Assembly (NCBI GenBank): GCA_950106755.1
Contig: OX467084.1
Location: 28,833,213-28,897,212 of the forward strand
Reading direction: 5' to 3'
From: Climacium dendroides
Lineage: Eukaryota; Streptophyta; Bryopsida; Hypnales; Climaciaceae
Length of the DNA stretch: 64,000 bases
The position numbers and the translations under genes are program-made. Under the pieces are notes generated by a model, which worked only from the letters and a program-made list of their open reading frames with translations, searched no databases and was not told the origin of the DNA. Positions 19,766 to 43,262 of this stretch are shown one piece after another (position 1 is the stretch's first letter; each line of letters opens with the position of its first letter).

Positions 19766-20224
19766 CCGGGTACAGAAGGGTGGACCGGACCGGATCTGCC
19801 CAGGAGTGTACTTAGGACCGAAAGTTACAGAGTCCAGACTTGAGAAGTTAGTCCAGAAGACTGTGGAGCTAGTAAAACCGGAAGAAGGATACAGTCCGGT
19901 CGTAGTTTTCCGGTTGGTTTTGGATGTTCTGGTTTTCAGAGGTAGAACCGGAAAGTAGAATTGAAGGGTTTAATTGGGTTTATCTCCTTGTTAGAATTAG
20001 CTACTTTACAGGATCTCATGGGTTCGATCTTTAGGGTCATTTTGTTATACTCTAGGGTGATTTTTGTGAGTATAATAGGGAAATTGCTTACTCTGTGCTG
20101 CGACACTAGTCTTTCTAACTCTTGGCTTTTCTTTTCCCTTCCGTGCTAATCCGGGTCTACTTAATCCGGATTCCGTGTTACAAAACATGATAGAGAGAAA
20201 AATCAAAAAGTTAGGTTGCGACAT

Positions 20225-21230: not shown

Positions 21231-21244
21231 GTTGTCTAAAGCAA
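21231..21244. repeat. target-site duplication of element B, left
   Basis: GTTGTCTAAAGCAA is repeated exactly at 37,411-37,424, immediately outside the opposite terminal inverted repeat. One to three of the 14 bases could belong to the element or match by chance, so the true duplication is 11-14 bp. Confidence 0.9.
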
Positions 21245-21445
21245 CGACACTAGCGTGCGAGCCTTGAGCGGCGAGCTTGTGAGCTGCGAGCATAAGCCTT
21301 GCGAGCGTGGAGCCCCAAAAATTATAAAACCCACCTCCCCCCCCCAAAAAAAAAAGTTAAAAATTTTTGTTCTAAAAAAAGACTTGTACTTACTATTTTT
21401 AGTAAAATTTGGGTCCTATGACCAAGCCACCTATGACCGTGAATT
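21245..21445. repeat. left terminal inverted repeat of element B with subterminal CGAGC array
   Basis: The end starts CGACACTAGCGTGCGAGC and continues with GCGAGC, TTGAGC, TTGTGAGC, TGCGAGC and TTGCGAGC at 7-9 bp spacing. Further in is CCTATGACCGTGAAT (about 21,431-21,445), which is inverted with respect to ATCCACGGTCATAGG near 37,312. Such arrays are typical binding sites of a transposase. Confidence 0.75.
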
Positions 21446-21639
21446 TAAAAAAAAAAATTATTTCAATAATTACCATTTGATATGTGAAAATTTTCTTCAA
21501 CATTAGTATACAGTTAGGCATGTACTTCCAACTCTATAATGCAACTATGTATGCAATCACCAATCATTTATAGGAAAAGATATAATTAGTTTAGCAAAGA
21601 ACACTATAAAAAATATTTGATGGACATTACCTAGCCTCC

Positions 21640-21800
21640 ACTATAGCTGCTCTAGAAGAACTCTTAAGACTTAGCTCAATATGGGGATTGCGCCCAACGG
21701 CATAATTTGGGGCCTCACGGGATTCGAACCCGGGCCATCACATTTCAGTCTCATGGACCTCTCGCTAATATACTCCAACTTAATGGAGTGATTGCTCAAT
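21640..21800 (-). repeat. tRNA-derived SINE
   Basis: On the minus strand a B box GGGTTCGAATCCC (around 21,719-21,731) lies about 25 bases after an A-box-like TTAGCGAGAGGTCC (21,755-21,768), the spacing of an RNA polymerase III internal promoter. The flanking sequence does not close into a proper acceptor stem. I therefore call it a SINE and not a functional tRNA gene. It sits inside element B. Confidence 0.55.
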
Positions 21801-22315
21801 TGAAAAAAATAAATATAAAGCATAGAAGACGTCTTCCTGGAAAATGGGTAAGCAACCATAAAAGATAAATGACATGAAAGACAAAAGGAAAACAAAAGAA
21901 AGAAATGGGAAGTAAAATGTGAAAAGGAGGATACTAAATTATACAAAATAGAAAAATAAAATGAAATACAAGTAACAGTGGAGGAAAAAAAATAGTATGG
22001 ACTTAGGATAGGAAAAAAATAAAAAAACATACAATTGCATGACGAAACAAATGACAGTCAATATCAAGAAGAATGGAAATACTAATGGAAAGCCAAGGTA
22101 AAAAAAGGGGAAAGACATGTGAAATACAATTCAAGAAGAGAAAAAGAAAGAAGAAGGAAAAGAAAATGTCATTCATATTCATATTTTCATAACTACATTA
22201 CCTCTTTCAATTGTAGTTTTCAAGCTTCCATTTTTCTTTACTTCCCATCAATTCAATGGTATTTTAAATATATTAAAAAAATACCATTCAAATACATATG
22301 AAGTTTAGTACGTGC

Positions 22316-25300
22316 CTACTGTGGCATAGTGATTATTCCTGCTCGAAGTAAAAGAAGTTTCAACTCATTGAAACTATAACTCGGTGTATGAATGAATTTG
22401 TCGTCATGGATGTCCATCTTGCAGAAATATCGATACAAGTAATATAGGTGCTTGTAATTCACATACTGTTGACGTCCTCCAATAGCTGAAGTAGACATGT
22501 TCACAAAGTCTGGGCATGTGCAGGAAGGGAACATACCCATGGTTACTCGATACACATTTTTGTTCTGATCTATCCCAGTCTCCAGAGATATGATTGCTCC
22601 TAGTCCCGGGAAAGGAAACAAGGTCACTCCCAAAATTTGACCTCTAACATTGCCTACACTCTCCCACTTATTGCGTTGTTCTGTAGTTGGTGCATTTGCT
22701 ATTCGCCGTATGGTTCGATTGTTCCTCACTATAGGATACACATCTACATTTGTTGGCGGGACTTCATCATACACAACACTTTCAAAAATCTTTGACATGC
22801 TGAACAAACGACGTGGTGACAATGTAGGTTGTTCTTGCAACCGGAAGCCAACATGTTGCAACAATAAAGTCTCGTCTCGACTGAGGTTTGTTCCTATCAA
22901 AATAGGCCAAATTTCTGGCACATCCGGCCAATCTATTACCCACTTACGCTTTGTACCCTTCACACATCGTTCAATATCATCTGCACAGAATCAAAAGTCT
23001 GCAAATACCTCTCGTTTTGTTCCGTAATCTTCTTTTCTACCACGATAAGTTGGAGCTGCTGTTCCCTTTCGTCCTCTTGCAATTCGAGCAGTGCACTTCA
23101 TATTTGACCCTCGCTGCTGAGCTTGACACTTAGCATTAGATTTGTGACTGATCCTTGCAATGTGCCATTTTGATGTGTCACAGTCACTTTCAAATGCGAT
23201 TGTGACGTGGTTATACCTATTTGACTCTGGTTCTTTTCCTTTGCCTTCCGAAGAGTTTATAGGAGGAATAGTGGACCTTGTTCGGACACGAGGTTGAGAG
23301 AAATTTACTTTGTCTGGTCGATGTGAGTCTCCTGCATCGCCAATTGGAACGTCCAATTTCCTCTTCGTGCTCCCAAATATCTCTTCTCCTTCCAAATGTG
23401 GTATACGACTTCCAATTCCTTCAGACCCAGGTAGGGAATTCAATGCTTCTGCCATTTTCTTAGGATCTCCACTTCGTCTTGCAGCTCTCAACTTCAACTC
23501 CCCCTTTGACGGACCGGAACCAGAGGCATGGCCTCTCAAATATGCACGGTAGTTTGTCATTTGCATCCACGCACGGATGCTATCATCACATGTGGCATCA
23601 AACAAATTGTTTCCTCGGTTGCCAGACATTTGAAGCCATTTATTATGAACTGTCTCTGATAGATTGCACGAAGGCATATCTGCCATCTCTTCTAGATTCA
23701 AATCCTAGACATGCAACCAATAACCAAAATTACTTCTCATAATTACTTTCATTCATTCCACCTACAGAAAATACTGAAGACCATTAATTATGTGCATGTA
23801 TAGTTCAAATGGCATAAAAAGCATTCCTAAATAATTAATTAGAAAACACATACTATTTATGCTGAAACAAAATAATACATCATCAATATACAATTCACTT
23901 TTTACGTCGAATATGACTACAACTTGCTTGTACGGTAACAACTTCACATATAGAAAAGTGAATATTCTCTTACCATTTGCATGAACCCCCCCTATTGTCG
24001 GTATCTGAAATGCCAAAATGCCAACCAATGCTCCAAGTGATGAAGTGCATCTTCCGTGGCAGCACCTGATGATAACCACCATGAATGAATTGCTAGGTAA
24101 CGTGTCTCTGCCTCCTCCATAGTTTTAGCATCTTTATACTGTTTGCAGAGTGTATTGTGCTATTGTTGAAATACTTCCTTAATATGTTTCTGAGTATGTT
24201 TTTGGAGAGAAGTACTCCAATGTAGTAAGCATGTCCTCTCCCTATTCTCCATTTTCTCATTGGCACATCCACTTCCATAGACAATTCGAACTGCATTCCA
24301 ATTGGCCATAGCACTATCTACCATGAACCCTTTGAAGTTTGGGTGATCTAGTCCATGTCTTGACATGACAACATTCAATGACCTCCAGAATTGCACTTGA
24401 ATTTCCGTATCTTCTGACTGCATATCGCATGTTGCAATGGTCATTACCTTTTTGTACTCGGAATCGTACACGTGGCAAGCCATTGTAGTCCAGTCCTTCA
24501 CATGCTTCACGTGGTCAAACATCATCCATGCATTCTACAGATTCCCCCCTGGCTGCATGCGCTTCACCAAGTCTACTCCACTACCAGGTCCTTCGGTCAG
24601 CATCTTGAAAAGGTATACCTTCTCCTTTCCTTGACCAGGAAAAACGCTATCATGAATGAATTCAAACTTTGAGTCTCTCTTCATGGTCATAATATTGTCT
24701 ATGACTCCTCCTCTATTGTTTGAGCGAAATGAAGAAATCACATTCCGAATGTTTGGACTGCTCAAATACTGGAAACGATCCATCACTTCCTCCAATTCCT
24801 CCCCTTGTAACATCTTCTTCTCTCCATTTCCGTTGTGGAATAGATAGTTTGTAAGGAAGTCTTTGCTTGCTGATAGAGCAATGGCGGAGTTCGTGGCCGT
24901 TGGTGTTTTGGCCACTTGTTCTGCAATCAATTCACTAATCTTCTCTGCAGAATCTCTATACATGCCTTTGGCAGTAGGGTGAGCATGATGTCCAAAATGA
25001 ATAGCGGCCCTAGTCATTTTTGGATTCTCACTATAGTAGTAGTACATCCTAGTATCACAGGTGCTTAGACACGTAGGAGTTTTTCTACAGAGTTTGCAAA
25101 CCAGAGTACAGTCTTTAGGAGGAGTATCCCCTACTGTGAAAGCGAAGGTTGTCGCACCAGTCCACTCAGTTTCGTTGCGCTTTGAAGCCCTCTTCAGATA
25201 GTTACACTCTACATTTAGACAAACAAGATGACCAGCGCAGTATGACTTACGGAACTTCAACTTGTCAGAGTTGTGGATGTTTGTAGTCACCAACTTGCAC

Positions 25301-26133
25301 CATGGGTGTCCATCATATCTCTTGTCCATTCCTTCCAAGTTCTTGGCCGCTGATGAAGAAGAAGATGAACGACATGGAGGCAACTCAAATATGACATTTC
25401 CATTGAACATGGGTGGAAGAAACTGTACGCAATGGTGCTTCATGCTGTTCAAGTCCGTCGTTGACAACTCATTTCGTGAACGATGCATTCTGCCTAATCC
25501 CCTCAAAGACTCCATTATACTGACTCGGTTCTCTATATTTGGTGGCAATGGAGGACGGGACAATTTAGTTTGACCTCCACTGCCTGATGGGTTGCTTGAC
25601 ACTGGCTTCACTAAAGCATTTCCCTGCCATGCAACTTCAATTTTGTATGCAGTTCTCCGGACTGTTAAGTCAGGGGACTCTCCTTCGGATTCACTAGACA
25701 ACTCTATGATGGTATCTAACTTCTCAATTTTAACTGGGCGAAGACCTGAGTTATCAAAAAAGACTGGCAGAGCTTGACGACTAGGACTGCATGAAACCGT
25801 ATGAGCAACATATGGCATATCTACAGAAGAGTTATTTGACTGCCTACTTCGAATTTCGGTTGATGCATTTACCATAGACAATGGTAGCCCATAAGCTCTA
25901 TAGTTTCCAATAGGAAGATACCAACACTGACTTCCTTCCTCTATAGACTTCAATATTGGAATTGACTGTTGTACTTCTCCTAATTCAGACATTTTCTCTT
26001 CTTCTACATAGATGGATGACTCCACAAATCTAAAATGGACGTGCAAGAGATGGCTCAGAACTCTAGCGTGTCCACCCTCATCAACTGGAAACACTAGGGG
26101 AATGTTATGGCCATCTACACGAATGCAAGCCAT
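22316..26133 (-). pseudogene. MULE-like transposase with SWIM-like C terminus (element B copy; four stops)
   Basis: There are two exons: 26,133-23,974 (720 codons, intact donor CAAATG|GTAAGA) and 23,704-22,316 (after CTAG). The frame is continuous for 1,182 residues and broken by TAG at codons 533 (24,535), 658 (24,160) and 714 (23,992) and TGA at codon 958 (22,991). The first 532 residues are open and hold the acidic/Ser N terminus and a Cys/His zinc region of WRKY-GCM1/FLYWCH type (CAGHLVCLNVEC, then CKLC, ending in HFGHHAHP). The DDE core has D540 (FDHVKH), D606 (FMVDSAM) and C635/H638 (CLLH), as in MULE transposases. The C terminus has CTCPDF (1115-1120) and YKH (1137-1139), a SWIM finger in which the third Cys is Tyr (TAC for TGC). 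Terminal-repeat binding, excision and integration would be its role. This copy is inactive. Confidence 0.8.
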
Positions 26134-27515
26134 GATACAATCTTCACTTAAAAACAATAGTCAAGATCAACTACAAATTAGTCTTTGGTGTTCTGAGTAT
26201 GAATACTCACTCTTTTATAGTGCATTTTCATGCATATTGATTTTACTATACAACTACTGAAAACTGAATAGGATACTAGAAAGTAGTTAAACTTCAAATT
26301 TACCAGACATTAACAACTGTCTTGCAACTTCTACAACATTCTCATAATAGGGCCCCACAGTTAAACATTTATTGATGTTGGCGGCTATGCCTGGCACACT
26401 TACACTACGTATAGAATAAGTACTTGCGCACCAATTTCAAATAATAGAATAATTGGCAACTAAGCCTAGTACTCTAGTAGGCTCAGATTGTCTACAATAG
26501 AATTATTTGCGCAACAATTTCAAAAAATAGAATAATTGGCAACTAAGCCTAATACTCCAGTAGGCTCAGATTGTCTACAATAGAATTCTTTCTGCACCAA
26601 TTATTTGAAAGTTGATAACATGACTACCACTGAGGTATACAGTACAAAAATATAATAGAATAACCTATTTTCCACATACAATAAAAAGGGATTGCATTGC
26701 AATTTTATGTACATAAATGAACACATCCATTTGTACTGTCTATGCTTCAGTAATTAGAACTGCTTCCAAAGCACTTCCTAAAGAAAGAAGATGGTTTATA
26801 TATTCCCTCGGATTGCCTCATGGGGATTGCATATATGTTCCTTCAAATTCCCTCATGGATGGCCCAAATGTCTACATTCATTACAATTGTGATGAATATG
26901 AAACTAACTTCTGATTGTGAGTTCTTGGCTAAACTTTATTTATAATCCTATTTAACTTTCATAGTTTCTGGTAACTATAAATCATGCCCAATGTTATGGA
27001 TATAGTACAATAAACAATGAAATAAGCCAATCAGTCTGCCTCTTTAATTAGGTTCCTTCATCATGGCAAGTTCCTTTATCATTCATTGGCTTCGGCATAT
27101 GGTGGCACACACCATTTTATAAGCCCAAGCCATTAACCTTACACAAATCCACATAACCCACATAGTTGCATCCTTTGATAGGAAATGAAAATATTTATCT
27201 AGTGTAGAATGTGAAGAGAGTATAGTGGTATCGTAAAACTTAATTTTTCTATTCACTGTAGTGGGAATGTAATTATTCGTATAGAGTAAAAATTGAAGAT
27301 AATAGTCAGAAGAGAACTAATTTAGCATAGCATTCCTGAACATTGTGTGAAATTAAGAATTAATCTTTCTATTCCATATTTGACAGTAGTCATAATGATT
27401 ACTCTTTCATTTTGTATTCAGCAAAATGCACTTCAAGTTTTTGGTTTCATGAAGTTTGGACTTGCATTAGAAAATTGATTGATTTCTAAGTATGTTTTGA
27501 GTTGTGGCAACGACA
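26134..27515. other. transposase-side part of the element B spacer
   Basis: This is AT-rich DNA upstream of the transposase and presumably its promoter. It contains an 83-bp tandem duplication (26,421-26,587) and the TTGGCGGC block shared with element A near 26,376. A short frame at 26,717-26,914 has no recognisable content. Confidence 0.5.
26421..26587. repeat. 83-bp tandem duplication
   Basis: Two adjacent units contain AATAGAATAATTGGCAACTAAGCCTA and GTAGGCTCAGATTGTCTAC-type words at a spacing of 83 bp (26,443 and 26,526), with few differences. A third partial start follows. Confidence 0.75.
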
Positions 27516-27519
27516 CAGG

Positions 27520-27870
27520 GCACTCCAGTATTCTCATGATATAAGGTAGGTGGCTCTTAAACCGACCCTTAAAGAGGTCATTGCATTTTGGGGAAAGCTA
27601 AACAGCTCGAAACAATTTTTAGTGAATTGGCGTAGAAAAAAAAATTGAATTGACATCTAATCCCAGTCGTTTCATATTCTCTGGACCTTTGTGGAATTAG
27701 TTACAGATTTATGAAGCTGGAAAATAGTGGTTTATAAAACCGACTCCCTTCTGAAATGTATGCATTTGATACACTCGAGAAGTAAAATCTACCAAATCGG
27801 TTTTAGGAGCGGGTCCAGATTAGAGCCACCTACCTTACGGTTTAGGGTGCAATTTGAGAGTATCGACTGC
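27520..27870. repeat. foldback / MITE-like element
   Basis: TAAGGTAGGTGGCTCT at 27,542-27,557 is the reverse complement of 27,822-27,837. The pairing extends outward through AAACCGACCC-like words and a GATACTCTC/GTATTCTC end, giving arms of about 40-50 bases around 250 bp. Confidence 0.65.
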
Positions 27871-28036
27871 ATCAACTAAAATGACACACTCCTCTTCATG
27901 TAAAGGAAAACCTGATTGAGTAGGAATGTCTGAGTAGGATTCGAAGTAGAAACAAAGGGCAAGCTTCAGAACTTCCGTAAACAGCCGAGCTCATCCAAAT
28001 GCATGCACCGAATTCATAACCACAAACCAAATTTGA

Positions 28037-29660
28037 TTGACATTCTTCTGTAAACAGTTGAGCTTGCGCATGCAAATGAGTTTTTTTTTTAAATCAGCAT
28101 ATTCTCAATTCAAACGTCAAAAATTACAGCACATGACGACGTCGCATGCAGGACGTGCCATCTCAGGATCTAAACTCGCTAAAAGTGAAGGCCACCGAAA
28201 ATTCTTTTCCCCTGAACTAGTTGTACTCCATGTGCACCATTATGAGATTGGAATCTCCTACCATACGGGAATGACGGACCGCATGTGGCCATACTGAAAT
28301 CGAGGGAAGGAATGTTTTAAGTTTGAAAAGCGTTTCCGGAGGTTCTTCCTAGGAATCTTCCGTAAGAACTTCCTTCCTTCAGCTTCGATTGCCAGTATAT
28401 AATTACAGTGTCTCCCACACATCCTCAACTGCTTGCTTCGTGCCTTCAATACTTGACGTTCTCTTCTTCGAGTCTCTGGACGTGTACTGTGGCAACTTTG
28501 CCTCATCTAGACAACTTTCTAGTTACCGTCTTCCATATTCGCTGTCCTACATTGAGCACAGTCCTCCGAGGTACAAGGTACACGAGTTTCCCGTAGTATC
28601 CCTGAAGTCTCCTTCGGTAAGTGTTCTCTCTTGTCTTACTGTAGTTTCCAGTTCCCATTTCCCGTTCGTTGAAGTCATTGAGTTGCTCTTCTATTGTAGC
28701 TGAAGGCCTGTAGTCCTGCAGGTGGCTTCGAATTCAGCGGTACGCTCCATCTTCCGAGAATGCGGAATATTAGGAGACAGCAGCGGGTGCAGTCGGAAGA
28801 GGTGGACCCGACACCGACTTTAAATGACCTGCACAACAACCAGGTTAGCATGGTACTTCCATCGAGATGTTTGGCTCTCATTGCGGAAGATCGCCCAATC
28901 TTCGTTTGGTATACGAATGCCTTCGATTAGTAATATCAACTCGATCATTAGAATCTAGTTCAATATCATGAACCGCTAGTTCAACAGTATGTTGGGCGTC
29001 TTCCACAACTGGATCAACAATGTCAACGTGCACTCGTAAAGGGTGTGACAGATGAACATACCCTGTCATCGGGCAGTTCTTACGCTTGTGCAACATTGTT
29101 TCTAGGCCGCCTCGGGTCAGAAAACTCCTGCAGTTGACATAAGTGGTGATCGATAAGTATGATTAGCAGGACTATATTCGTGATTAACCGTTACAAACTC
29201 GTATCAAACACCGCGTATAGGTTTTGGAAGTTGCAGAAATCCAGACAAAATTTAATTTCAAGGTTCTCTCAATACTCACTTGAAGCGAGACATGATGGCT
29301 CAGATTCGGGTTCGGAACACGCCCCACATTGCGGTCACGTCTTGACATGATCGATAACTTGAAATCAGCGACCCACTGGAAGTGGTCTCAATAGGTTCTA
29401 AGCCAACGTTCTAAGTTCTCGATCAATTGGGCTTCAACGAGGTTATAGCGGGGGTTATAGAACTGAGAAGTTGGAGAGATAGTTTGACGACAGTGATCAA
29501 AATGCAAGTTAAAGTGCGTAGATCGATCCCACTTACGATGTCGACTGCAATGGAATGGCAGACAATGTTTGTCTGGGACGGACCGGACTTAGTCGCCAAG
29601 CTGCAGCTCATCAGCAAAAGTAGTTTACGTCTGCCGACTAGTTGAACGTCCTAGTTCTGA
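28037..29660. other. less AT-rich island, possible captured gene fragment
   Basis: This stretch has visibly higher G+C than its surroundings and lies only in element B. A TATA-like TATATAATT at about 28,396 precedes a frame that begins with ATG 28,760 (MRNIRRQQRVQS) and meets a GTTAGC donor after CAG at 28,843. On the minus strand a 72-codon frame (29,096-28,878) also looks protein-like. The 20-base word CGATCCCACTTACGATGTCG occurs twice (about 29,524 and 29,814). Capture of host DNA is common in MULEs, but no source gene is recognised. Confidence 0.3.
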
Positions 29661-29946
29661 ATTCCTGCCACGGCTTCTAGCTTAGGTTGCGTGCTGGAGT
29701 CGAACTGAGTCTAAGTTCATCTCTCCAGTTTAATTTCCGAGTCCACCACACAGAGAAAGAATGATAAAAATGGGCAATCTCGTCTGGCCGTAGTCATTGC
29801 AGGAGCTTACGATCCCACTTACGATGTCGGCAGCTCCGTAGGTAAAAAATAAAAAAATCAATCTTTTAGATCGAGGCAGAATTCGAGCAAGGCCACAGAG
29901 CCAAAAGTTTCGGAATATGCTGGAGGTAAGAAGGGCAAAGTGAACA

Positions 29947-30047
29947 GCAAGACAGGATTGGGGGTAGCGTGAGCTACCCCAAGGAACCCTGTCGGGTCCG
30001 ATAGGGTTCCCTGAGGTAGCTCACGCTACCCCCAATTCGTGTCTTGC
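29947..30047. repeat. foldback element, near-perfect 50-bp arms
   Basis: The ends are GCAAGAC and GTCTTGC. The arms pair almost perfectly through GGGGGTAGCGTGAGCTACC and into GGAACCCT/AGGGTTCC at the centre, so nearly the whole 101 bp can fold into one hairpin. Each arm also contains a smaller palindrome (GGGGTAGC...GCTACCCC). Confidence 0.85.
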
Positions 30048-30242
30048 AGTACTGTAGTGAGGATTCAACATGGTCCTTCGATTCTTTATTTTTTTTATTT
30101 TCCATTCCTCCGATCTTGTCATGAGCAGTTGATTGGGTACAGCACGCTTCGGTAGTAGTATAGTAGTGATGATAAATACTGGTACGTATACTAATTGATT
30201 TAAAAAAGTCAAAAGTTTTTACTCTTGATGAAGATTTTTACC

Positions 30243-30661
30243 AAGTGTGGTTGTAGAGTTTTCCCACTTAGAATAATACTAGGATTTATTATTTTCACAA
30301 ATATTTTTACCAAGTGTGGTTGTAGAGTTTTCCTACTTAGAATGATACTAGGATTTATTATAAGTGTGGTTGTAGAGTTTTCCTACTTAGAATGATACTA
30401 GGATTTATTATAAGTGTGGTTGTAGAGTTTTCCTACTTAGAATGATACTAGGATTTATTATAAGTGTGGTTGTAGAGTTTTCCTACTTAGAATGATACTA
30501 GGATTTATTATAAGTGTGGTTGTAGAGTTTTCCTACTTAGAATGATACTAGGATTTATTATAAGTGTGGTTGTAGAGTTTTCCTACTTAGAATGATACTA
30601 GGATTTATTATAAGTGTGGTTGTAGAGTTTTCCTACTTAGAATGATACTAGGATTTATTAT
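30243..30661. repeat. 50-bp tandem repeat array
   Basis: Units start AAGTGTGGTTGTAGAG and end GATTTATTAT. Seven units lie at exact 50-bp spacing from 30,312 to 30,661 and all seven appear identical. A diverged unit at 30,243 is set 69 bp earlier. Confidence 0.95.
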
Positions 30662-30966
30662 TTTCGTGAAAATACCTACAAGGAGTAAAAAGTTATAGCA
30701 TTTCTAAAGCAGGTAGTGTTACATATTATTTCATCAAATTACAATGAAAAAAATAAAAACCTAAAAATATGAATTAAGAAATGGTGAACACAACACTAAA
30801 TGCAAACCAATTGAAATTTTGAGTGGGTGTGGTAGAAATTCAAGTAAAACTATTAGTAACATAACACGAAATACCATCATTAGTGTAGTCAACGTGACTT
30901 CAAGTTCATTGAGAAATTCATGGTCAATGCAAACGCCGTGGACCAAAACGCACACGCCATGAAAAA

Positions 30967-31016
30967 GCAAGACCAAAACCAGGGGTAGCTCACGGTACTC
31001 CTATTTCTCATCTTGC
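30967..31016. repeat. foldback element, 50 bp
   Basis: It begins GCAAGACCAAAACCAGGGGTAG and ends with TTCTCATCTTGC. The halves pair imperfectly around TCACG. It is a degenerate member of the GCAAGAC/GGGGTAGC family. Confidence 0.6.
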
Positions 31017-31393
31017 TATCCTAGTCTCCATGGTGAGGGACACTGAATATGGACGTTAGTAGTGGGTTTACAAGTACGTTTCAGCAGCCATGTTTGGGTG
31101 CATTGACCGGGAATGACCTCAAGTGATGTCCACATGATTTTGTTTTGACTCTATTGAAAAAAAGTTGGATTTTGACTTTATTTTCCTCCAAGTCTAATTT
31201 AGTTTCTTGTTATACCTTTAATGGAAAAATCACCGAAAATTAATTGTTTATTCTTCATGGAAGTTTACGAAATCCATTGTGAGGAAGCAATGAAGGGAAC
31301 TACTGTAAATTAGTCGTTTACTTTGACCTTTAATGTATTTATTAGATATGAAGTGTCCAACCTCTACCTTTAAGTTTCTGTGAGTGCTGGACT

Positions 31394-31495
31394 GCAAGAC
31401 AAAAAAATAGGGTAGCGTAAGGTACTATATAAACCCCCGTTGGACCCGACAAGGTTTATGGGGGTGGGTGGCATTACACTTCATTCTGGTCTTGT
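31394..31495. repeat. foldback element, GCAAGAC ends
   Basis: Arms beginning GCAAGAC and ending GGTCTTGT pair imperfectly. The interior has TAAACCCCCG...GACAAGGTTTATGGGGG. It lies about 350 bp before the small ORF. Confidence 0.6.
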
Positions 31496-31846
31496 AGAAA
31501 GAAGTATATTTTTAATTTTAGGAATGTTTCAATGTGCATGAGTTCTATTTTTTTAATTGTTTCGATTCCTTGAGTTTCCTCCCTGTATGATTATAAGGAA
31601 GGGGTAGGCATATGTCATAAAAGGGCTTTCCCTGTTTTCGTGCAAATTACAGAATTTATAAATATTTGGTATTCTAGCTATGGGAATGTTGAAATGGAAG
31701 TCAAGTAAGTTTGAGATGTCAGTTTCTGTTTTTAATATTGATTTTTTCTTCTTACTTTTTATTGATGTACTCTTAGTATTATTTTTTAAAAATTTATTCG
31801 ATTGTAACTAACATTGGCCTACCTTATTATTAAAATGGTTTTGCAG

Positions 31847-32299
31847 ATGAATACACATGAGAGTCTGAACGACCATGCCCTTTTACCAATACCTTCCAAT
31901 ATGGCAATCCATATTGTAGATGTTGCGGGAACTTCGGAACCTAGGACTCCAGAAGATAGAAACATCAACATTGCTAGCCAGTCATTGCCTTATGAAGACA
32001 CTGACTTGGTAAGCCTTGGAGACATTCTTGATGCTTGTGACCAAGCAACTGATCAATTAGATGAACCTTGTTGCAGTAGGTTCAGTGATTCCAAAAAACG
32101 AAAACGAAAACAACCAGTGTTCTCTCCTGAGAGTTCTGAGACTGAATATAGTAGCTCTAATTATCAAACATCAATCTCCATTTCTAGTCCACCAATTGAG
32201 GATATTAGAGATACTGCTGGAAGCTCCGGATTGGGCAGGCACAATATTGTCCTCATCCACTTGAGTTCTGATTCAGATGCTAGTGTAGAAATTGATTGA
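31847..32299 (+). CDS. small acidic nuclear-type ORF (ORF1, element B)
   Basis: This is a 150-residue counterpart of the ORF at 7,235-7,687. It has the same start context (TTTTGCAG|ATG), a basic patch KKRKRKQ, an SSETEYSSSN stretch, and a C terminus NIVLIHLSSDSD followed by VEID, close to the consensus of a SUMO-interaction motif with an acidic tail. The stop TGA is at the same codon. The GTAAGC donor after DTDL is also kept (about 32,008), so an in-frame splice to CAG|ATG at 32,520 is possible. The conservation of sequence beyond that donor argues that the full ORF is itself used. Confidence 0.55.
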   Translation: MNTHESLNDHALLPIPSNMAIHIVDVAGTSEPRTPEDRNINIASQSLPYEDTDLVSLGDILDACDQATDQLDEPCCSRFSDSKKRKRKQPVFSPESSETEYSSSNYQTSISISSPPIEDIRDTAGSSGLGRHNIVLIHLSSDSDASVEID

Positions 32300-32519
32300 G
32301 TTTGAAAGGAATAGAGGCAACTGCAGTGTTGCAGCATTTGTATTACTTAGTCATTGGTGTTATTATGATACGGGCAATTATGTATTACTTGTACAATCCT
32401 TTGTATTGAGAATTTTCTTACCATCATAGTAAAGATTTGTTTTGCAAGTTTAACTTGGAACTTCTGGAGGACTTCCGTGTATTTCGTAATTGCTCTAAAA
32501 AATATACATGATCTTGCAG

Positions 32520-35500
32520 ATGGAGGAGTCACCAATTAATCTGTCACAGGTAGAGGAAGTCCATTCAACTCCACCTACCAGTGAAAGAGGTCAACCAGAA
32601 ATTGGCACTGAGGAAGAAGGAGATGTTGAGGTCAATGATGTTGATGAGGAGGAGGAGAAGGAGTTGCTCGAAGATGAACTCTGACGGTTGCAGAAGGTAG
32701 ACTCTGTGGCCACCATCGAGAGTTTGAGGATGAGGCCTCAGAAACACTCCCGAATGCGCATACCTTTGTGCAGATTGGTACCCATGCTAATGGTTAGGCC
32801 CACCCTCTCTTGTGATCTTGTAAAGCTTGAACAAGAGTTTGTTCATGGATATCGGGATGGAGCCGCAGTTTTTTATGTTTCCACAACTAATGAGGCAGGG
32901 GAGTCTTCTGAATTCTCGAGAGATGAAATGGATGCTTGGGGTCCTTTGTGGAAATCAGAGAATGACATCTTCAATGAGTACTTAGATTCATTACCAGAGT
33001 TGAGGTACTTGAAGAACTCAAAGTTTTTTATCTGTGATGGAAATCACCGTCGCTTGGCGTGGATGAATCATATCTCAAGGCTGCATGTGGCGGATCGAGC
33101 TTGGCACATTTCAGTAGACAGCATCATTTTGGACACGAAAGGGAGAATAGAGCTTGTCATGCAGATTATGCATAACATCAATAAGTAAGCGTGTATCATA
33201 TGATGTTGTTTGATTGAACTTAATCTTTGACTTTTATTATTTTATTATTCAATTTATTCATATGTATGAAATGATTTTATAGCCTAATGTGAATTGTAGG
33301 TCAACGGAGGATTCCCATGTGAAGACCAATCTAGTTCATACTCTTTATCGTGTTCAAAAGTATGGGCTTCTTCCCATGGAGAAGTTCAATGAAATGTTGA
33401 GACCTTCTGAGAGGAAACGTTGTGGTACACAATCAGTGAGAAAAACATGGTACTCAATACCAATGGAGGTCTTCACGGCTTTTGTTTTTCGGGTAAGAGT
33501 GAGAATGTTCTAACTATTTTATATATCTTTCATTTTAGGTCATTACAATATAGGAAGGGCTGAAGAATGTGCAAATTTGGTATAATTGAAATTGTGTTGA
33601 TGTTATTTTTTAGCAAGAGATAGCTCAAGGAGCGGATGCCACAGTACGGAAGTACAATGAAGTGACAGCATTTGAAGATAAAAGTGATGAAGGGGTGGCT
33701 AATGCCATGAGGGTTGGAGCTAAAGAGAAGGCGGCAAAGTTGTACGTGAAAATGGGAAAATTGCTTGCGGTGGCAAATCCTACTCACGGTCTAGGATTTC
33801 TGGAAGAGGTGATGAAGATTTATGATGTAAAAAACGGTTGTCTTATTTTTTATTATTGTGATTTATTTAATGCTGAAAATTTTTTATTTCCTTGTGAAGG
33901 TTGAAAAGCATTGGACCACAAATGAGGTTCCTGAAATGACATTGGAAAAGCTACAAATGATAGCCACTTGCAATACCTCTGCAGCACAGAAGACAAAGTT
34001 GTTGAAGTGGTGGAACTCGTCCATGCCTTCACGGGATGCCAGACATTTCCCTCCAAAGCCAATTTCTGAAGATAAATTGGGGCCTTTCCTCAATAAATGG
34101 GTTTGGTGGGCAGGGGTAAGTGTTTGTATTTATGTAAATGATATTTCATGTATATAATGACAATATCATGAAGTACTACATTTTGCAGTTTTGTTTTTTC
34201 ATGTATACGAAACGATAATGGAGTTGTACTGATAAGAATATAATGTAGATTGAGGATAGTGCGGTAGAGTACTTTGACAATGTAGTCAATAAAGATGGCC
34301 TAAAAATCAATATGGCATCTCCACTTCAACCGGAGTATCTTCCAGAGTATATAGAAGGATGGAGAAGGAAGATTTGGGATCAAGGTTTTGGCCCAGCTTT
34401 GAAGGGATCAAACCCTTTTAAGAAGTCGGAGACCTTCTCAAATTTTGATGGATCAAATGATGCTGTTCGTAGAGTTCTTTTCCGGTATGTTTATGTAAAT
34501 ATGAATTTTATGTTTCCTTACTTTCTTCGAAGGATGAGCATACGTAGTTATTTGTTCAGTGAATTTGTGTTATTTGTAACAAGGAATTCGGCTATGTGAT
34601 TGTTACTAATTTTTTGAATGTTCTTATTGTAGGTATTTCAAGTACGAGCTTTTAGGGAAGAACGCCATACCTAGGGAGGATCTTCCTCCATTTCTAACCA
34701 CATGGTTGGACCGGAGTTCTGAAGAGTGCATGTTCACGTCAAGCCAATTGAAGACATTCACGACGGCTCATTTGAGTGGTGGTGCGTGGTATCTAGATTG
34801 TCCGTTGACATTTACTCATCCATCAGAAGTAGAACTTCGGAAATCACTAGATGGTCTTGGCGTCATTGACTTGGAGGTTCCCGAATTCAACAACTACACT
34901 GATCAACAGAAGAAGAAAGCAATTGCAAAGAGAATGGTTGCTGACAAGAAGAAAGAGAACAAAGAGCAAGAGATTTGTGAGAACAAGGAGAAGAAAGAAG
35001 CGGAGCGTCTTATGAAGTTAGCAGAGAAGGAGAAGGAGAAAGAAGAGGGCAAGGGGAAAGGCAAAGGCAAGAAGAAAGAAGAAGGCAATAAACAAGTACC
35101 GGCGTCTTCAACGGTTGATCAGAACTCGCACATGCAAAGTGGATCCCAAAGTGGGTTGAAGAGGAAGGTGATACTTCCAGATTTCACAGAGGACATTGTA
35201 ACACAAGGTACTCAAGCCATAGTTCTTGGTGATGATGCAGACGTCACTTCAGAGGAATTGATCTTGAACGTCTCTATAGTGGACGTGATGGATAACATGG
35301 AGTCCGAGGTGCCCAAGTGCTATACTGAAGTGACGACTTTTTTGAAGAAGGTAACCATGATGCTTTGTCTAGAACTATGAATCCTTTTTTTTGTGGACCT
35401 TTGAAAAAAAGTTGTATAAATAATTGATTGTTTGCATAAATTCGTTTCTGCAGTTGGGACCAGGGAAGTCCCGTATATATGGAGGTAAAGTGAGCCAAGC

Positions 35501-36836
35501 ACCTTTAGTGGACCTCATCTTCTTTGACTACCAAGAGAATTTACCTGTCCCAGATGTATCTTCTCCAGAGAAAGCAATACCTTCATGGAATTTAGATCCA
35601 GAGTATGAAGCCATTCCATCGGCCTTCTTTTTTGCAGATATGCACTTACAAGACCATGGTTGCATGATAGTATTTCAGTCGTGGTGTGCCGATTCAAAGG
35701 GCATTATTGCAGGATTGTGCGAGTCTTATCTTTCACTGGTAATGAAGAAGGAATGGTTGGGTATCAATCGTATGCATTTAACTTCAGCTGTGGAGGACTC
35801 GGAAACGGTTAGTGTTTTTCAAATATTTTCATAATTTTAATGGAAGCTGGCATTGACAGATGGTTGTATTCTTTTCTAATACATAATTTTTTTGTGACTG
35901 TAGACTTTGAAGTTTGGAATCACTCTCTTGGTGAAGGACCTCGGTGATAAAGAGAACTCAGGGTTCTCTTTGAAGCGATCACAAGCAATGCAGAAGGCAA
36001 AAGTAGACCTACACAAGGATGATACATTAATTAACTACACAACTGAAGAGAGCATGTTGGTCAATCCACTAACCAAAATTCCATGGCGAGGGCCTCGCGA
36101 AAAGAATGCTAGGTTCTTCCAATTCCTTATAGAGGGGACAACTGAAGAAGGCGACTTGGTTTTCGATTGCACAGCATCCACTGGTTAGTTTTCATTTTAG
36201 TAACTGGATTTTCATATATGTGTTCATATAATGATTCATTGATATGAATTGCATTTTGTAATTTGTAGGTGCATCAATTACAGCATGTCGCGGCACGGGA
36301 CGACACATAGTGGCTTTAGAGGAAGACAACACTGTTTTTCACGCCGTCCTTGAACCTATGAAAAGGAACACTGAAGAAGATGTGATAATAACTGAAACGC
36401 AACTGCCATTGCCGGTTGCATCTTCACAAGATCCGGACGCAATGATAGTGGTTCCTCAGAAATTTCCTCGCCGAACTAAACCTAGTAAGTAAGTTTTTCA
36501 TATTTTTCAAGTGCTATTTGACATCCTACTTCTTCTATTTCGTGACTTTAATATTCTATATGTTTTTTTTGTAGGCGTAAGAAACTGATGTCCACAGATG
36601 CATTGAGGAAGAGACGCAAACTAGTACTAAGTCCAGAGAAGCCTTTTGATCTCCCAGTTTATGCTGAGCAATTAGCATCAGCATTTGCAAACTTTGGTAG
36701 CTTAGAACCAAAACGTAGAAAAGATACCTATGCTCTTAATGTTTTGCAATTTATAGATGAATCGGCAGCAGAGGGGAAAGAGACTTCAGAGTCTGAGAGT
36801 AGCTTGGCATCTGCAACTCAGTCCACTACAACCTAG
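32520..36836 (+). CDS. ParB-like / degenerate N4-N6 DNA methyltransferase fusion (element B copy; one premature stop)
   Basis: The exons are 32520-33184, 33300-33492, 33614-33808, 33900-34115, 34249-34484, 34633-35350, 35454-35807, 35904-36183, 36269-36488 and 36575-36836, giving 1,112 residues. All exons after the first match element A base for base in length (193, 195, 216, 236, 718, 354, 280, 220, 262); the first is 6 nt longer. Domains are as in element A: ParB-like with DGNHRRLAW, Lys/Glu coiled coil, motif IV position DLIFFDYQENL, motif I position FDCTASTGAS, and HIVALEED. A TGA at 32,682-32,684 replaces the CGA seen in element A, so the frame is broken near residue 55. Everything downstream is open. 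The element A copy is intact at this site and broken at another. The protein may bind DNA through ParB and act as a non-catalytic methyltransferase fold, which is inference. Confidence 0.75.
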
Positions 36837-36984
36837 ATTTATGAGATTGATATATCTCATGAGTCAAATTATTATGTATTCATTTATAGTATGATTTGAT
36901 TTGATTGTGTGTTTTATGGCTACATCTTTAGTATGATTCATTCCCCTTCAACATTTTGCATTTTATATTTTCTGTCAAAATTAA

Positions 36985-37211
36985 CTCTTGAACGTCGGAT
37001 AGGGTCCCGTAGAAATCAATGATTCTGGAACCGTGTGACATCATTTACTTTAACAATACCAAAAATAATTATTGGGAGTCAAAGTATTGTAGAAAATCTC
37101 TCTTTTCCACCTTTAATTATGTCGATGAATAGTTGCAGTTACGTCCTACATATGAGATTATTTTGTCATTCATTAGACATTTGATGTCCTGTATGGCCTT
37201 TCTGAGTTGAA
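36985..37211. repeat. about 227-bp insertion near the right end of element B
   Basis: Element A reads AAAATTAATCACAATTG here, while element B has about 227 extra bp between AAAATTAA and CACAATTG. The insert starts CTCTTGAACG and ends GAGTTGAA. It is probably a small non-autonomous insertion acquired after the copies separated. Confidence 0.5.
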
Positions 37212-37298
37212 CACAATTGGTTGTTGCAATTTTTTATTTCATTTAAGTTTGTAAGTAAGTAAAATTTCAGAAGAATGAGCTCAAATCTTCACAAAAAA

Positions 37299-37410
37299 AA
37301 ATACACTTACATCCACGGTCATAGGTCCCCCACATTTTTTTAATAAAAAATCTTTCCCGCTCATAGGCTCACAGGCTCATGGGCTCACAAGCTCGCCTGC
37401 TAGCAACCCT
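37299..37410. repeat. right terminal inverted repeat of element B
   Basis: Read inward it is AGGGTTGCTAGCAGGCGAGC, then four TGAGC units at about 8-bp spacing, then a T/A-rich run and CCTATGACCGTGGAT. It corresponds to the left end, with several CG positions there appearing as TG here. Confidence 0.8.
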
Positions 37411-37424
37411 GTTGTCTAAAGCAA
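37411..37424. repeat. target-site duplication of element B, right
   Basis: This is an exact copy of 21,231-21,244 (GTTGTCTAAAGCAA) directly outside the right terminal repeat. Confidence 0.9.
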
Positions 37425-39790
37425 GCACAAGTATTGGTCTCTTATATCTATACTATTAAAAAAATTGTATGTTTTGTTTTGTTTGGGATGTAAATTGGAA
37501 TTTCCTGAACCGACATGCGAACGGGGTGCTCTTGGTGGTGATGCAAAGCCTTTGGAGGAATGTGTGTTCATAAAGGAATTTTCAAAACGTTTCAATAGAT
37601 GGAATAAGAAATATTGAATTTCAAGTGAACCACAATATTGCACCAATAATTTTGACTTTTACTTTTATTTATGTTGATAGTTTGTTTTGCTTTGGTTGTT
37701 TTGGCTAGTTGGTTGTTTGAAATGACAATTGAAATTTCTACAAATCCACAATTGCTAAGTTGATATGGGCACCTATAGTACTATTAAAAAGTCTTTGAGT
37801 AGGGGTTATGTGCAAAACAAGTTTTATAGCATTCCAACTCACATGAATGCATTAGCCATTTTTTCAATGGGAATCACAAATGGTATACTAATAATTATAG
37901 TTTTGGCAATAGTACAAGCCATATTAGTCTCTGATTAGTCTATATATTGTTTAAACATGTAGTTTGTTTGTTTTATGGTATTGGAGTCTTCTAAACCATC
38001 ATGTCAATGGGGGTGTTCTTGGTGTTGATTGAAGCTCTTATGTAACATGTGTACACAAAGCAAGTTCTTCTACGTTTTAATCAACAAAGTGAGAGATATT
38101 AAATTTTGAAGTTTTTATTTTATTTTTCATATTATATATTTATTAGGCATATTATTTTCATATGTCAACTAATTTTTTTAAAACATGATGCAAAATTGAC
38201 ATCAAACAAGATTTTAAACATTAGTGTTATAAATAATTTGCTTTGCTTTAAGAATTAAAAATGACTTATGAAAGAAAATTTTAAAAGGGATTGGTTATTA
38301 CTTTTGAGGCACTTACAAATGACATATTAATTATGGTTATGATAACAATACATGATAGGTACTAACCTTGTTTATAATATGTGCAATTATCAACAATTTA
38401 ATAAGTACCTATCATGTACAATTATCGCTTATTTAAATTCTACTAGTTTAATAGGTATTTTGTTTTTGATGTTTTAAAAATTTATAGTTTTTATGCAGAG
38501 TCCAAAAAATAAATTTTAAGAGTAGCAAAAATTCCATTTCAACTATCAACAAGATCCAATGAAAGCTTTTACACTTCAAAATATTATTTGGTCACAAGTA
38601 TTAATAGGTGATTTATTGTTCATTATAAAAACTCAAAGAATGCACCTATTGGTTCAACAATCAAAAAAATTTAGTGACTACCTTAGTCATGGGGACCGTG
38701 TCCTTCAAGGATTAACCTTTAAATGTCAAGGCAGACATTTGGTGTCCAATGGATGACAAAGAATCTTTTAGTGTAGGACATAAGTGCAACTATTCATCCT
38801 TGGAATTTTGCGTGAAAAGGAGAGATCTTTTACAATATTTTGACTTCCAATGAGTGTTTTTGGACTTTTTTAGACCATTGATTTCCATGGTATCAAAATG
38901 GATGATTTCCATAGTCACTAGTCTGTCATTTAACCCTTAAATGTTGAGGTGGATGTTTTGCATCTGATGAATGACAAAGAATCTTTCCATGTAGGACGGA
39001 AGTGCAACTATTCATCCTCCAAATTTTGTAGGAAAAGGGAACGTCTTCTATAGTAGCTTGTCTCCCAATGAGCGCTTTTTCATTTTTTTAAGCCAACAAT
39101 TTATATAGTACCCAAACAAATGATTTCCATGGTGATTGGCTTGTCATTTAACCCCTAAATGCCCAAGGCACCAAATTTTGGTGCGACAATACTTTGAAGT
39201 TGAATAAGATCCAATTAAGTTTCTATTTTTAGTAGTTTGTATTTTTGATAGATTTTTTTTAAAGTCTAGTTTTAGCATCAAAAATTTGATCTTAAAAATG
39301 AATGATTATGATTTTTCTATTCAAGATTTTATGCAAGGGTGTCCATTGCAATCTTGACTTTCCATAGTATTGAGGGCTCTTGAAAATGAGCCCCAAATAC
39401 ACTAGATCTTGAAGGAAAAATCACATTATAAATTCATTTAAAAATATTATAGAATAGATTATGAGAAGGCATAAATTGATTGGGGTTATGCATGTTAGGC
39501 CTTCAACCTCATATTTTTTTGGTGACCAACTAATTAGATTTGATATGCAAAATGAGAGTTGAAAGATTTTCATAGTTTTAATACCCTCATGATCAAACAT
39601 TATAATTTTTCAATCCATAAGTGATATTGTTGTGTTTTCTTCTCCTATATGATCTCTAGCATGTTTAATTTGAATTTGCGTGCTTACAATTCAAAAAGAA
39701 TTGTTATAGCTTATCAAATATTTTCTTTTTATTCAATTTAGAGCGAATTCCAAGAAGCAAAAGAGGCCTTGGGCATTTAGGGGTTAAGGG
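37425..39790. other. AT-rich intergenic DNA with 218-bp tandem repeats
   Basis: No gene is seen. From about 38,705 to 39,180 a 218-bp unit is repeated: TAACC(C/T)TTAAATG occurs at 38,713, 38,931 and 39,149, with GACAAAGAATCTTT and AGTGCAACTATTCATCC in the first two units. The word TAACCCCTAAATGCCCAAGG at 39,149 is inverted at about 39,767-39,786, bracketing 600 bp. Confidence 0.6.
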
Positions 39791-40357: not shown

Positions 40358-43262
40358 ATGGCAGAGACCGGGGTTGTTCCCAGGAATCGCAATGCGCGAG
40401 AGGGGAACATGGGGGATGACGAGCATCTTGTCTTTGAGACAAGCGCGGGCGTGGAGGTGATATCGAGTTTCGATCAAATGGGCATTCGAGAGGACTTGTT
40501 GCGAGGAATCTATGCGTACGGGTTCGAAAAGCCCTCTGCTATTCAGCAACGGGCCGTGATGCCCATCATCAGTGGTCGTGATGCGATTGCGCAAGCTCAG
40601 TCTGGAACGGGAAAAACCTCCATGATCGCTCTGGCAGTTTGCCAGATGATCGACACGGCCACGCGCGAGTAAGTGCTTTACTTTTTCACTCTGCTCCTGG
40701 CCCCTTTACACAATTGACTGTTTACATTTTTACCCTGTGGCAAGGTCCCTTCTCTTCCTCTTGTCGAATTCCGAGGATTGAGGGATGGTCCAGGAGTCCA
40801 GTGCAGCAACGTCACATTATTCTGAAATTACTTAGTCATCTTGTGGCATTATAGTGAGGGACTGATAATGTAGACAACTGGGGTGGTGCTGGTTATGGAA
40901 TGCTAAGATACCTGCAAAGCGTGCTTTCTTGTTTCAAGAGTGGTAATCGTTTGTGGATGGGGACATTGCTTTAAGATTATAGCTCCGTCATCTGTTTCTG
41001 CTATAGATGTGGATGAGTACGCCCAAATGATGTTAAATGGTGACAGGGTGCAGGCCCTCATTTTATCTCCTACTCGTGAGCTCGCCGCACAAACAGAGAA
41101 GGTGATCCTTGCAATTGGCGATTTTATGAGTATTCAAGCACATGCGTGTGTTGGTGGAAAAAGCATTGGAGAAGACATTCGGAAGCTTGAATATGGAGTT
41201 CATGTTGTCTCTGGGACACCTGGGCGTGTTTATGACATGATCAAAAGAAGGACATTGCGGACCAGAGCGATAAAACTCCTCATCCTGGTAGGTTTCAATG
41301 TCGTCACATGTCACTGCACTGTCGATATGGTTTCTGGCCGGTATGGTAATGGATACATGGACTTCCGAAAAACTCTTACCGGATGCTTTTCATTTTCTTA
41401 ATAAAGATATAATGAAGTTGTGAATTTGTTAAAATCTTAAATATCCGTGCTGTTCTCCACATTTTATTCATTCAGTCGATATAAAGTTTGATTTGAGTGT
41501 TGCTTACAAGCTTTCTATTTCAGTGAATCTTGCCTTATCATATTTCGCTGATACGTAGATTTATTGTGGGCCTTCAGGATGAATCTGATGAAATGCTGAG
41601 CAGAGGATTCAAGGATCAGATTTACGATGTGTACCGTTATCTTCCTCCTGACTTGCAGGTGGGTCTCAGGTTGTCAAATTTGCTGGTTAAATCATTTTTT
41701 GCCTCTTGTTTATTATTCACGCATCTGGCAGAAATGTATAATTCTGATAGATTACGAAGTCTTTATTTTATATGATGAATTGATGACTAAGCCAAACACA
41801 GTGTTGACTTAATGATATCCTGCAGCAAATTTTTATTTATTTTAGTAATGCATCTGAGCTGAATGTTCTCTTCTATGAATCTTTATTTCAGGTTGTGCTG
41901 GTGTCTGCAACTTTGCCTCACGAAATTCTGGAGATGACAAATAAATTCATGACCGACCCTGTTCGAATTCTGGTCAAACGTGATGAGTTGACCCTGGAGG
42001 TGAACGAACCATCACTTGCCAATCTCACTGTTTTCCTATTATTCCGTTTAATCTGGTGTTCTCATTCCAACCATTTGTATAGAGATCAAATTTCGTATGA
42101 ATATTCTTACCTTCTTATTCTGACAGCAATGTTGATTGCGTACCCTGCATTAGTGATGCATCTTTGGACCATGAATCTTGCATCTTTTGAGATTTTTGTT
42201 CAGAATTTTTACATCAGTCTGCCATTTACAGGGTATCAAGCAGTTTTTTGTGGCTGTTGAACGAGAAGAATGGAAGTTTGATACATTGTGTGATCTATAC
42301 GATACTCTTACGATCACACAGGCTGTCATCTTCTGTAATACAAAGAGAAAGGTATTTTTGTGATATGACTGCTTCCAACTCTATTTAGCTGAATATGACT
42401 ATAATTTAGTTTGCTTGACGTGTTCCTTTCTGTGTGCCAGAATTATTGAACACCACTGCAGGTATACCGTTACTCGTTGTACCGGATATGTGGAAGGTGA
42501 GAAGTATTTAGGATTAGAATCTGTTTAAATTACTGAAGAGTGTGATACTGTACGCAGGTTGATTGGCTGACGGAGAAGATGAGGAGTAACAACTTCACTG
42601 TTTCTGCCATGCATGGTGATATGCCTCAGAAAGAGCGGGATGCAATCATGGCAGAGTTTCGGTCAGGCACTACACGTGTCTTGATCACAACTGATGTCTG
42701 GGCTCGTGGTCTTGATGTGCAACAAGTAAGTTCAAACTGTTAAATTCGTGTTGCCGGTTTCTGATAAGACAGAACATAGATGTGGTCCTTCCTTTCAACA
42801 TTTAAAGACACTGCCACGCGCTGTCTTCGTTGTGAAACGCCGTTCAAAGCGTTAAACTTGCTTCTTTGATCTTGTCAGGTATCATTGGTGATAAATTACG
42901 ATCTTCCCAACAACCGCGAGCTCTACATTCATCGCATTGGTCGTTCTGGTCGATTTGGGCGAAAGGTGCGTGCAGTGAAGTTATTTATGGAGAAATGTTC
43001 GGTGTTGCTGATGTTACAAACTTGCTATTTAGTTGAAGTTCAATTTTACTTTTTTATCGTTTATACACTTTTTAGCTGCCCTTCAAGAATGTTTGTGAGA
43101 GGCTCATTTATGTCCTACAGGTTCTAATCACTCGTGCTTTGAATGTAGGGTGTGGCCATCAATTTTGTAAGGAGCGATGATATTCGAATATTGCGGGATA
43201 TAGAACAGTACTACAGTACACAAATTGATGAAATGCCAATGAACGTTGCTGACTTAATTTAG
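40358..43262 (+). CDS. eIF4A-III-like DEAD-box RNA helicase (DESD in motif II)
   Basis: Eight exons: 40358-40668, 41047-41287, 41578-41658, 41892-41999, 42232-42351, 42558-42725, 42879-42965 and 43149-43262, all GT-AG, give 409 residues, the usual length for eIF4A-III. The conserved motifs are all present: Q motif FEKPSAIQQ, motif I AQSGTGKT (80-87), PTREL (112-116), SAT (216-218), HRIGRSGR (361-368), and the family C terminus [12 protein letters not shown]. Motif II is DESD (185-188) where the family has DEAD: codon TCT for GCT at the start of the third exon. eIF4A-III is the RNA-clamping ATPase of the exon junction complex in the nucleus and acts in splicing-coupled mRNA surveillance. The D, E and final D are kept, so ATP hydrolysis may survive. 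Orthology is firm; whether this is the main gene or a paralog is not known. Confidence 0.93.

Follow-up and report, generated by a model that had tools for sequence, protein, structure and literature searches.

The 64,000-nucleotide stretch analyzed here (positions 28,833,213 to 28,897,212 of contig OX467084.1, referred to as the window) holds two copies of a large DNA transposon of the cut-and-paste type, whose second, co-mobile gene codes for an accessory protein some 1,112 residues long. The predicted plan of this protein comprises an N-terminal domain resembling ParB and sulfiredoxin (Srx), a long linker, and a C-terminal domain of the DNA-methyltransferase fold. The gene, its domains by homology, its residence in elements flanked by target-site duplications, its conservation, its spread and the existence of an intact copy are directly supported. 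The protein probably acts on the DNA of its own element in an unusual way. With a confidence somewhat short of even, it is suggested that it is a self-directed DNA-binding factor with an anti-silencing effect: the ParB-like part would recognize or clamp repeats of the element, either the GAGC motifs of its two ends, or the variable tandem arrays that precede both genes, or both kinds; the methyltransferase-fold part, carrying the signature D-x-Q-E-N, would contact or mark the bound DNA; and the outcome would be that host silencing is countered and transcription of the element genes continues, comparable to the role of VANC in VANDAL elements. Within this scheme we infer anti-silencing, nuclear location, DNA binding, the sites targeted, and the presence or loss of catalysis.

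An earlier interpretation of the window, made from the letters of the DNA (the sequence-only reading), had described two ten-exon genes, each in its own transposon. This observation is confirmed, and its interpretation, which named anti-silencing or binding of terminal repeats as possible roles, is partly supported; both roles are still suggestions. Copy B, in element 2, spans 32520-36836 (+ strand) and copy A, in element 1, 7908-12478 (+ strand); both consist of ten exons with GT-AG introns. The gene start proposed early on, 31847, belongs to a separate open reading frame (ORF1) upstream. Exon 1 of copy B (32520-33184) harbors the ParB-like domain with the motif CDGNHR, whose core DGNHR had been recognized before. 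It is followed by exons 2 (33300-33492), 3 (33614-33808), 4 (33900-34115), 5 (34249-34484) and 6 (34633-35350), the last of which includes a charged Lys/Glu-rich stretch. Exon 7 (35454-35807) covers the motif IV position, FDYQEN in copy B and FDCQEN in copy A and the intact copy. Motif I begins in exon 8 (35904-36183; GDLVFDCTASTG) and its remainder lies in exon 9 (36269-36488), followed by acidic residues (GRHIVALEED), and exon 10 (36575-36836) provides a basic stretch and the C-terminus, all ten exons being on the + strand. The exon lengths of copy A are 659, 193, 195, 216, 236, 718, 354, 280, 220 and 262 nucleotides; copy B has 665 in the first exon and the same nine values thereafter, so that the claim of nine identical lengths holds. 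The introns had been said to differ in length and sequence, which is correct for the sequence (72% identity overall across 957 aligned bases, 59-84% singly), while three of the nine are equal in length. The encoded proteins, 1,112 codons in copy B and 1,110 in copy A, are 87% identical (964/1110 aligned positions), with nonsynonymous and synonymous divergences of Ka 0.068 and Ks 0.455 (Ka/Ks 0.15; 1,108 codons); conservation between the two elements, as asserted before, thus holds, and it extends beyond the window copies. Both window copies are broken, each by one in-frame premature stop, at 9012-9014 in copy A and at 32682-32684, within exon 1, in copy B. Readthrough of these stops was considered; because two copies elsewhere in the genome are free of stops, recent damage is likelier.

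The genome searched comprises 412.6 Mb in 123 contigs. A first look with the ParB-like exon gave 1,004 candidates, and of the 150 that were scored all matched at E < 1e-69, these being exon matches and not proven elements. Ten close copies were selected for a stop-free ParB-like exon and high identity, hence not as a random sample, and two of the ten divergent copies initially sought were examined, such that statements on linkage refer to 12 chosen copies. The transposase lies beside the gene, in divergent orientation as first described, in nine of the ten close copies and in both divergent ones, which for the copies examined excludes that the gene always occurs as an unlinked host gene. According to tblastn, 1,095-1,112 of the 1,112 residues are covered in all ten close copies, one of them rearranged; in the latter (C39:335587) tblastn found no transposase, and it was left out of the exon mapping. 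Among the nine mapped copies, two are stop-free, four are interrupted by one stop each, with an altered acceptor as well in two of the four, and three show frame changes. The stop-free copies are C40:5845599, with ten exons and GT-AG introns throughout, and C40:11344510, in which one donor is changed. In C40:5845599, ORF1 and the transposase match (981/981 query residues) are likewise stop-free; all three of its genes are free of defects, and it is called the intact copy. Element length ranges from 15.1 to 16.6 kb, and six of the seven copies with both ends read carry perfect 10-bp duplications, each different. The left side of the seventh, C1:7757999, bears the target-site duplication of C1:8076363, 0.3 Mb distant, which suggests recombination or inversion between the two copies. 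Copy B and the six close copies with the complete set of exon lengths differ by Ks 0.011-0.051, so the family moved recently; the Ka/Ks values inside the close set (0.26-0.82) exceed that between families and fit young, partly decaying copies. Copy A differs from the intact copy by Ks 0.458 and Ka 0.065. The two divergent copies, whose ParB-like exons are 72% and 66% identical, have the same gene layout, with transposase pieces 80-82%, accessory gene pieces 43-76% and ORF1 40-56% identical. The 15-kb transposon is very abundant in this genome.

Element 2, the DNA transposon holding copy B, extends from 21242 to 37411. Its ends are inverted, and it is flanked by a 10-bp target-site duplication, TTGTCTAAAG, present identically on the left (21232-21241) and on the right (37412-37421); the identical stretch runs a few bases beyond 10, and the 10-bp limit was taken from the other copies. 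The left terminal region (21242-21442, + strand) starts with CAACGACACTAGCG, contains repeated GAGC motifs as well as CCTATGACCGTG, and matches the inverted right end (37293-37411, − strand), which terminates in GCTAGCAACCCTG. The final 22 bases of the right terminal region of element 1 (12706-12822, − strand), ending at 12822, are identical to those of element 2. The inverted ends of element 2 are imperfect, the common stretches being GCGAGC/TGTGAGC and CCTATGACCGTG, and the 12-mer is exact at both ends in three of seven other elements. Within 100 bp the left end of element 2 contains seven GAGC/GCTC motifs, compared with a window mean of 0.58. In all seven elements examined the first 100 bp contain 6-7 and the last 100 bp 4-6 such motifs, against 0.43-0.51 per 100 bp over the whole element. 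A 218-bp tandem repeat at 38749-39161 is located outside element 2, with an inverted partner at 37037-37150 within the right end part of the element. Upstream of both genes one finds tandem arrays that differ from copy to copy: an 83-bp repeat of 2.2 copies (26424-26602) precedes the transposase of element 2, and a non-coding 50-bp repeat of seven identical copies (30312-30661) precedes ORF1. The core of the latter occurs only 0-2 times in seven other elements. The intact copy has arrays of 83, 54 and 69 bp, the first with the same period as in element 2.

The concentration of GAGC/GCTC in the terminal 100 bp of 7/7 elements would also suit a transposition helper, a protein that would attach to the GAGC-rich ends jointly with the transposase to aid synapsis or integration, with no epigenetic function; mudrB provides the precedent of such a second gene (part of PMC6446971). 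However, the terminal motifs could equally be transposase sites, and the methyltransferase-fold domain is left unexplained. A helper of this kind is placed second and regarded as rather unlikely. Anti-silencing DNA binding is preferred because the GAGC-rich ends are accompanied by tandem arrays that appear to resemble the anatomy of VANC targets, as far as described in part of PMC5735166. Ordinary base methylation ranks lower than both.

This last point leads to the C-terminal domain, for which methyltransferase homology had been proposed and which the profile search indeed matched to phage enzymes. Copy A matched the PHROG methyltransferase families 18293 (E 2.7e-9), 3008 (E 3e-9) and 6952 (E 4.5e-8), and the best PHROG match of copy B reached E 6.6e-8. 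With the domain alone, Pfam N6_N4_Mtase (PF01555) gave E 3e-4 at 21.2 bits, under the cut-off of 26.7. The NCBIfam CcrM model gave E 1.8e-4 at 20.5 of 830 bits, far under its cut-off. A tblastn search against phage sequences retrieved 521 records at E up to 1, and the 20 of these that were listed are annotated as methylases (best listed E 6e-4); the alignments of five phage records spanned 85% of the domain, with E 0.3-0.4. Profile-profile alignment (hhalign) against seven phage enzymes reached a probability of 96% and E 3.3e-9 over 60 columns. The significant part of these matches is the region of the S-adenosylmethionine (SAM) site. Judged by this homology, the C-terminal domain is a relative of DNA methyltransferases. 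A search of 5.8 billion proteins with the full-length protein scored 7,994 candidates, none of which reached E 0.01, probably because the database proteins are single-exon fragments; exon-sized queries retrieved four database relatives of the methyltransferase domain and 745 matches to the ParB-like exon.

The beta-class layout, with motif IV before motif I, had been proposed as well, and the evidence leans toward it as far as the order is testable, with DCQEN or DYQEN in place of DPPY. When exon 7 was aligned by hhalign without realignment to the N-terminal halves of the phage enzymes, DLIFFDCQENL fell on DMVITDPPYNI, with a score reached by one of 200 column shuffles; with realignment no match was obtained, and 18 of 100 shuffles scored equally high. 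Exon 7 alone matched no PHROG methyltransferase profile. Catalytic motif IV is defined as (D/N/S)PP(Y/F/W), and [DNS]PP[FYW] is missing in all eight full-length sequences (both window copies and six others). D-x-Q-E-N occupies the corresponding position in 11 of 12 sequences, i.e. in seven of the eight full-length ones, in P0001 and P0002 (both DCQEN) and in the two divergent copies (DCQEN and DLQEN); the exception is C40:28229584. Motif I reads DCTASTG in both window copies, P0004 and one divergent copy, DCTATTG in P0003, DCIASTG in C40:28229584, NNTGATG in the other divergent copy, and DCTASIG in the intact copy (GDLVFDCTASIG). The first glycine of its Gly-x-Gly is replaced by Ser, Thr or Ala in all six sequences compared (window copies A and B, P0003, P0004 and the two divergent copies).

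These residues bear directly on whether the protein is an active methyltransferase that places N6-methyladenine or N4-methylcytosine on the DNA of the element itself, with the ParB-like domain directing it there, a role suggested in print for the Sola1 protein of Ectocarpus. The homology is clear, architecture and size match the published protein of 1104 amino acids, and D-x-Q-E-N still contains the first Asp of motif IV as well as its Asn. Ordinary base methylation is nevertheless doubtful because there is no DPPY-type motif (0/8) and D-x-Q-E-N stands in its place (11/12); the replaced glycine of motif I (6/6) also counts against it. The N4/N6 methylase activity of the sequence-only reading is weakened to this extent, and we consider it improbable. 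The pattern suggests that catalysis was changed or lost under conservation. One step further, a ParB-guided methyltransferase-fold protein with a site rebuilt to D-x-Q-E-N, in a family with at least 150 genomic matches, may perform new nucleic-acid- or protein-modifying chemistry or may have become a non-enzymatic DNA reader of the SAM fold, in either case used by the plant-type element to shield its DNA from silencing; this is offered as a speculative possibility.

For the N-terminal domain the assignment to the ParB/Srx fold is leaning toward yes, in line with the earlier identification of a ParB-like N-terminus. A conserved DGxHR-type motif following a core strand is characteristic of the ParB/Srx superfamily. 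CDGNHR is nearly invariant across 38 sequences, and a structure model built from these (block values of the predicted local distance difference test, pLDDT, 69-94 over residues 71-200) places a strand at 167-171, then DGNHR, then a helix at 173-186. All 21 entries among the matches listed by VIA-align for this model are of the ParB/Srx type by reading, with weak Z scores. A model from two sequences was poor (pLDDT 38.7) and was not used. The domain could instead have another fold with a chance DGNHR: besides the low Z, no ParBc profile matched the exon sequences, and Foldseek of the model gave E above 0.3. Searches of the PDB with ParB-like profiles returned nothing or unrelated weak rows, and at E 0.001 nothing in a viral fold library was matched. 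None of the 120 entries among the matches listed of the 745 database relatives has a precomputed Pfam domain. Weak profile matches over the 38 members, namely DUF1015 (4/38, best 0.002), DndB (one, 0.032) and DUF6551 (one, 0.18), which we take to be ParB-like families, stood among evidently unrelated families at similar E. Set against this, the order strand-DGNHR-helix in the 38-sequence model, the 21 VIA-align entries and the near invariance of DGNHR make a chance motif an improbable explanation, slightly more so than active methylation. A prokaryotic origin had been proposed for the whole gene. This is upheld for the methyltransferase domain; for the ParB-like part, scans of viral and prokaryote contigs confirmed 0/59, 0/141 and 0/47 pattern matches and tblastn against phages gave two matches at E 4, so that at this sensitivity a relative in bacteria, archaea or viruses was not confirmed. 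The last alternative, a captured passenger gene without function for the element, as could be suspected from the premature stop in both window copies and from the acquisition of host gene pieces by plant Mutator-like elements (MULEs; part of PMC6446971), is very unlikely and was rejected on the constraint between families (Ka/Ks 0.15, and the values given above for copy A and the intact copy) and on the transposase linkage, the gene being nearly complete in 10/10 close copies and its layout kept in the two divergent ones.

The transposase of element 2 is encoded on the − strand by a 5' exon (23974-26160; in-frame stops at 24535-24537, 24160-24162 and 23992-23994) and a 3' exon (22319-23704) with a SWIM-like motif and a stop at 22991-22993. 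This amounts to four in-frame stops, with a stop-free counterpart in another copy; the splice donor position 23974 was read by eye. In element 1 the transposase (1806-4084, − strand) is broken by a frame change near 2879-2915 and a stop at 3239-3241; near 1910 the homology with element 2 breaks off. Target-site duplications of MULEs range from about 9 to 11 bp, and the 10 bp of element 2 and of six of seven further copies fall within this range. The SWIM match is weak (E 0.023-0.064, the former for the stop-free counterpart), no Pfam MULE profile matched the transposase, and the order D...D...CxxH...E was seen by eye in comparison with known motifs. The assignment to the MULEs is therefore likely from the duplications and the weak SWIM match, though the earlier reading finds no support from a transposase profile. 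Between elements 1 and 2 the transposase shows Ks of about 0.245 (744 codons), an approximate value since the alignment held some non-homologous end sequence, while the accessory gene shows 0.455, yet 0.25 in residues 801-960; in view of these differences, modules were possibly exchanged between elements.

ORF1, 150 codons with a basic KKRKRK stretch, is located at 31847-32299 (+ strand) in element 2, just after a splice-acceptor-like CAG, and with the same length at 7235-7687 (+ strand) in element 1. The two compare at Ka/Ks 0.39, and tblastn found ORF1 in all ten close copies, with a stop-free match in nine. In both window copies ORF1 contains a donor-like GTAAGC (about 32009-32014 and 7397-7402) that shares its reading frame with the CAG|ATG where the large gene starts, so ORF1 and the large gene may be alternative splice products. 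Fold-backs resembling GGGGTAGC recur at 6252-6300, 29955-30050, 30975-31035 and 31400-31510, several of them bordered by CAAGAC/GTCTTG; they may represent small inverted-repeat elements that lie between genes in the two transposons. Elsewhere in the window, an eIF4A-III-like helicase exon (40907-41401) and an EPL1-domain gene (53344-54045) are likely host genes adjoining the transposons. A gene with a YqaJ-like viral recombinase domain lies at 45020-45862 (− strand; Pfam E 1.3e-19) within this eukaryotic window. Inverted arms of 83 bp (13292-13374 and 20003-20085, 82% identical) enclose a block of GC-rich sequence, whose long unnamed ORFs lie between 14931 and 18904; this is possibly another mobile element.

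Among known systems the closest is the giant DNA transposon Sola1-1_Ec32 of the brown alga Ectocarpus, which, according to part of PMC12477816, carries a ParB-methyltransferase gene for 1104 amino acids opposite the transposase, the protein being likened there to ones from transposons of green and red algae. The sequence-only reading does not mention such algal genes. The present protein (1,110-1,112 amino acids) shares the ParB-like and N4/N6 methyltransferase-like domains and the orientation opposite the transposase; the elements differ in that 10-bp duplications and a SWIM-like transposase are found here, and a Sola1 transposon there, and the host genome here, a plant according to the sequence-only reading, has eIF4A-III-like and EPL1-like neighbors. 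The likeness is one of domain plan, size and orientation. A replaced motif IV is not mentioned in the section describing the Ectocarpus protein. Like VANC in the Arabidopsis VANDAL elements (parts of PMC5735166 and PMC10398659), the present gene is accessory to a large DNA transposon, here too probably of a plant, and is accompanied by copy-variable, non-coding tandem arrays; binding and hypomethylation by VANC are experimental, whereas comparable effects of the present protein are predictions. The phage beta-class N6/N4 methyltransferases (PHROG 18293, 3008, 6952; PF01555) share the SAM-site region and probably the motif order, but here DPPY is absent, and the domain is spread over several exons and follows a ParB-like domain and a long linker within one protein. 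DIRS and Ty3/Gypsy elements with Dam or Dcm methylases (part of PMC6338049) likewise encode a methylase-type domain, in retrotransposon polyproteins rather than in a divergent gene of a DNA transposon; the same part of that source states that methylase-encoding transposons are absent from land plants. In the open-access literature, no plant case of such a transposon gene was found among the matches listed. Compared with the algal cases, new features are the other transposon type, the high copy number, the intact copy, the altered motif and a host that is probably a plant. A little-noticed class of accessory proteins, encountered for algae in a single paper, is thus extended to a different type of transposon and, probably, to the land plants, where the intact copy is open to testing. 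Plant transposons may thereby have, besides VANC, a second route for controlling how they are silenced. The replacement of the catalytic motif poses the question of new chemistry versus a methyltransferase fold turned DNA reader, and since the family is very large in public sequence (the 745 matches to one exon), naming it would clean up much that is still unannotated.

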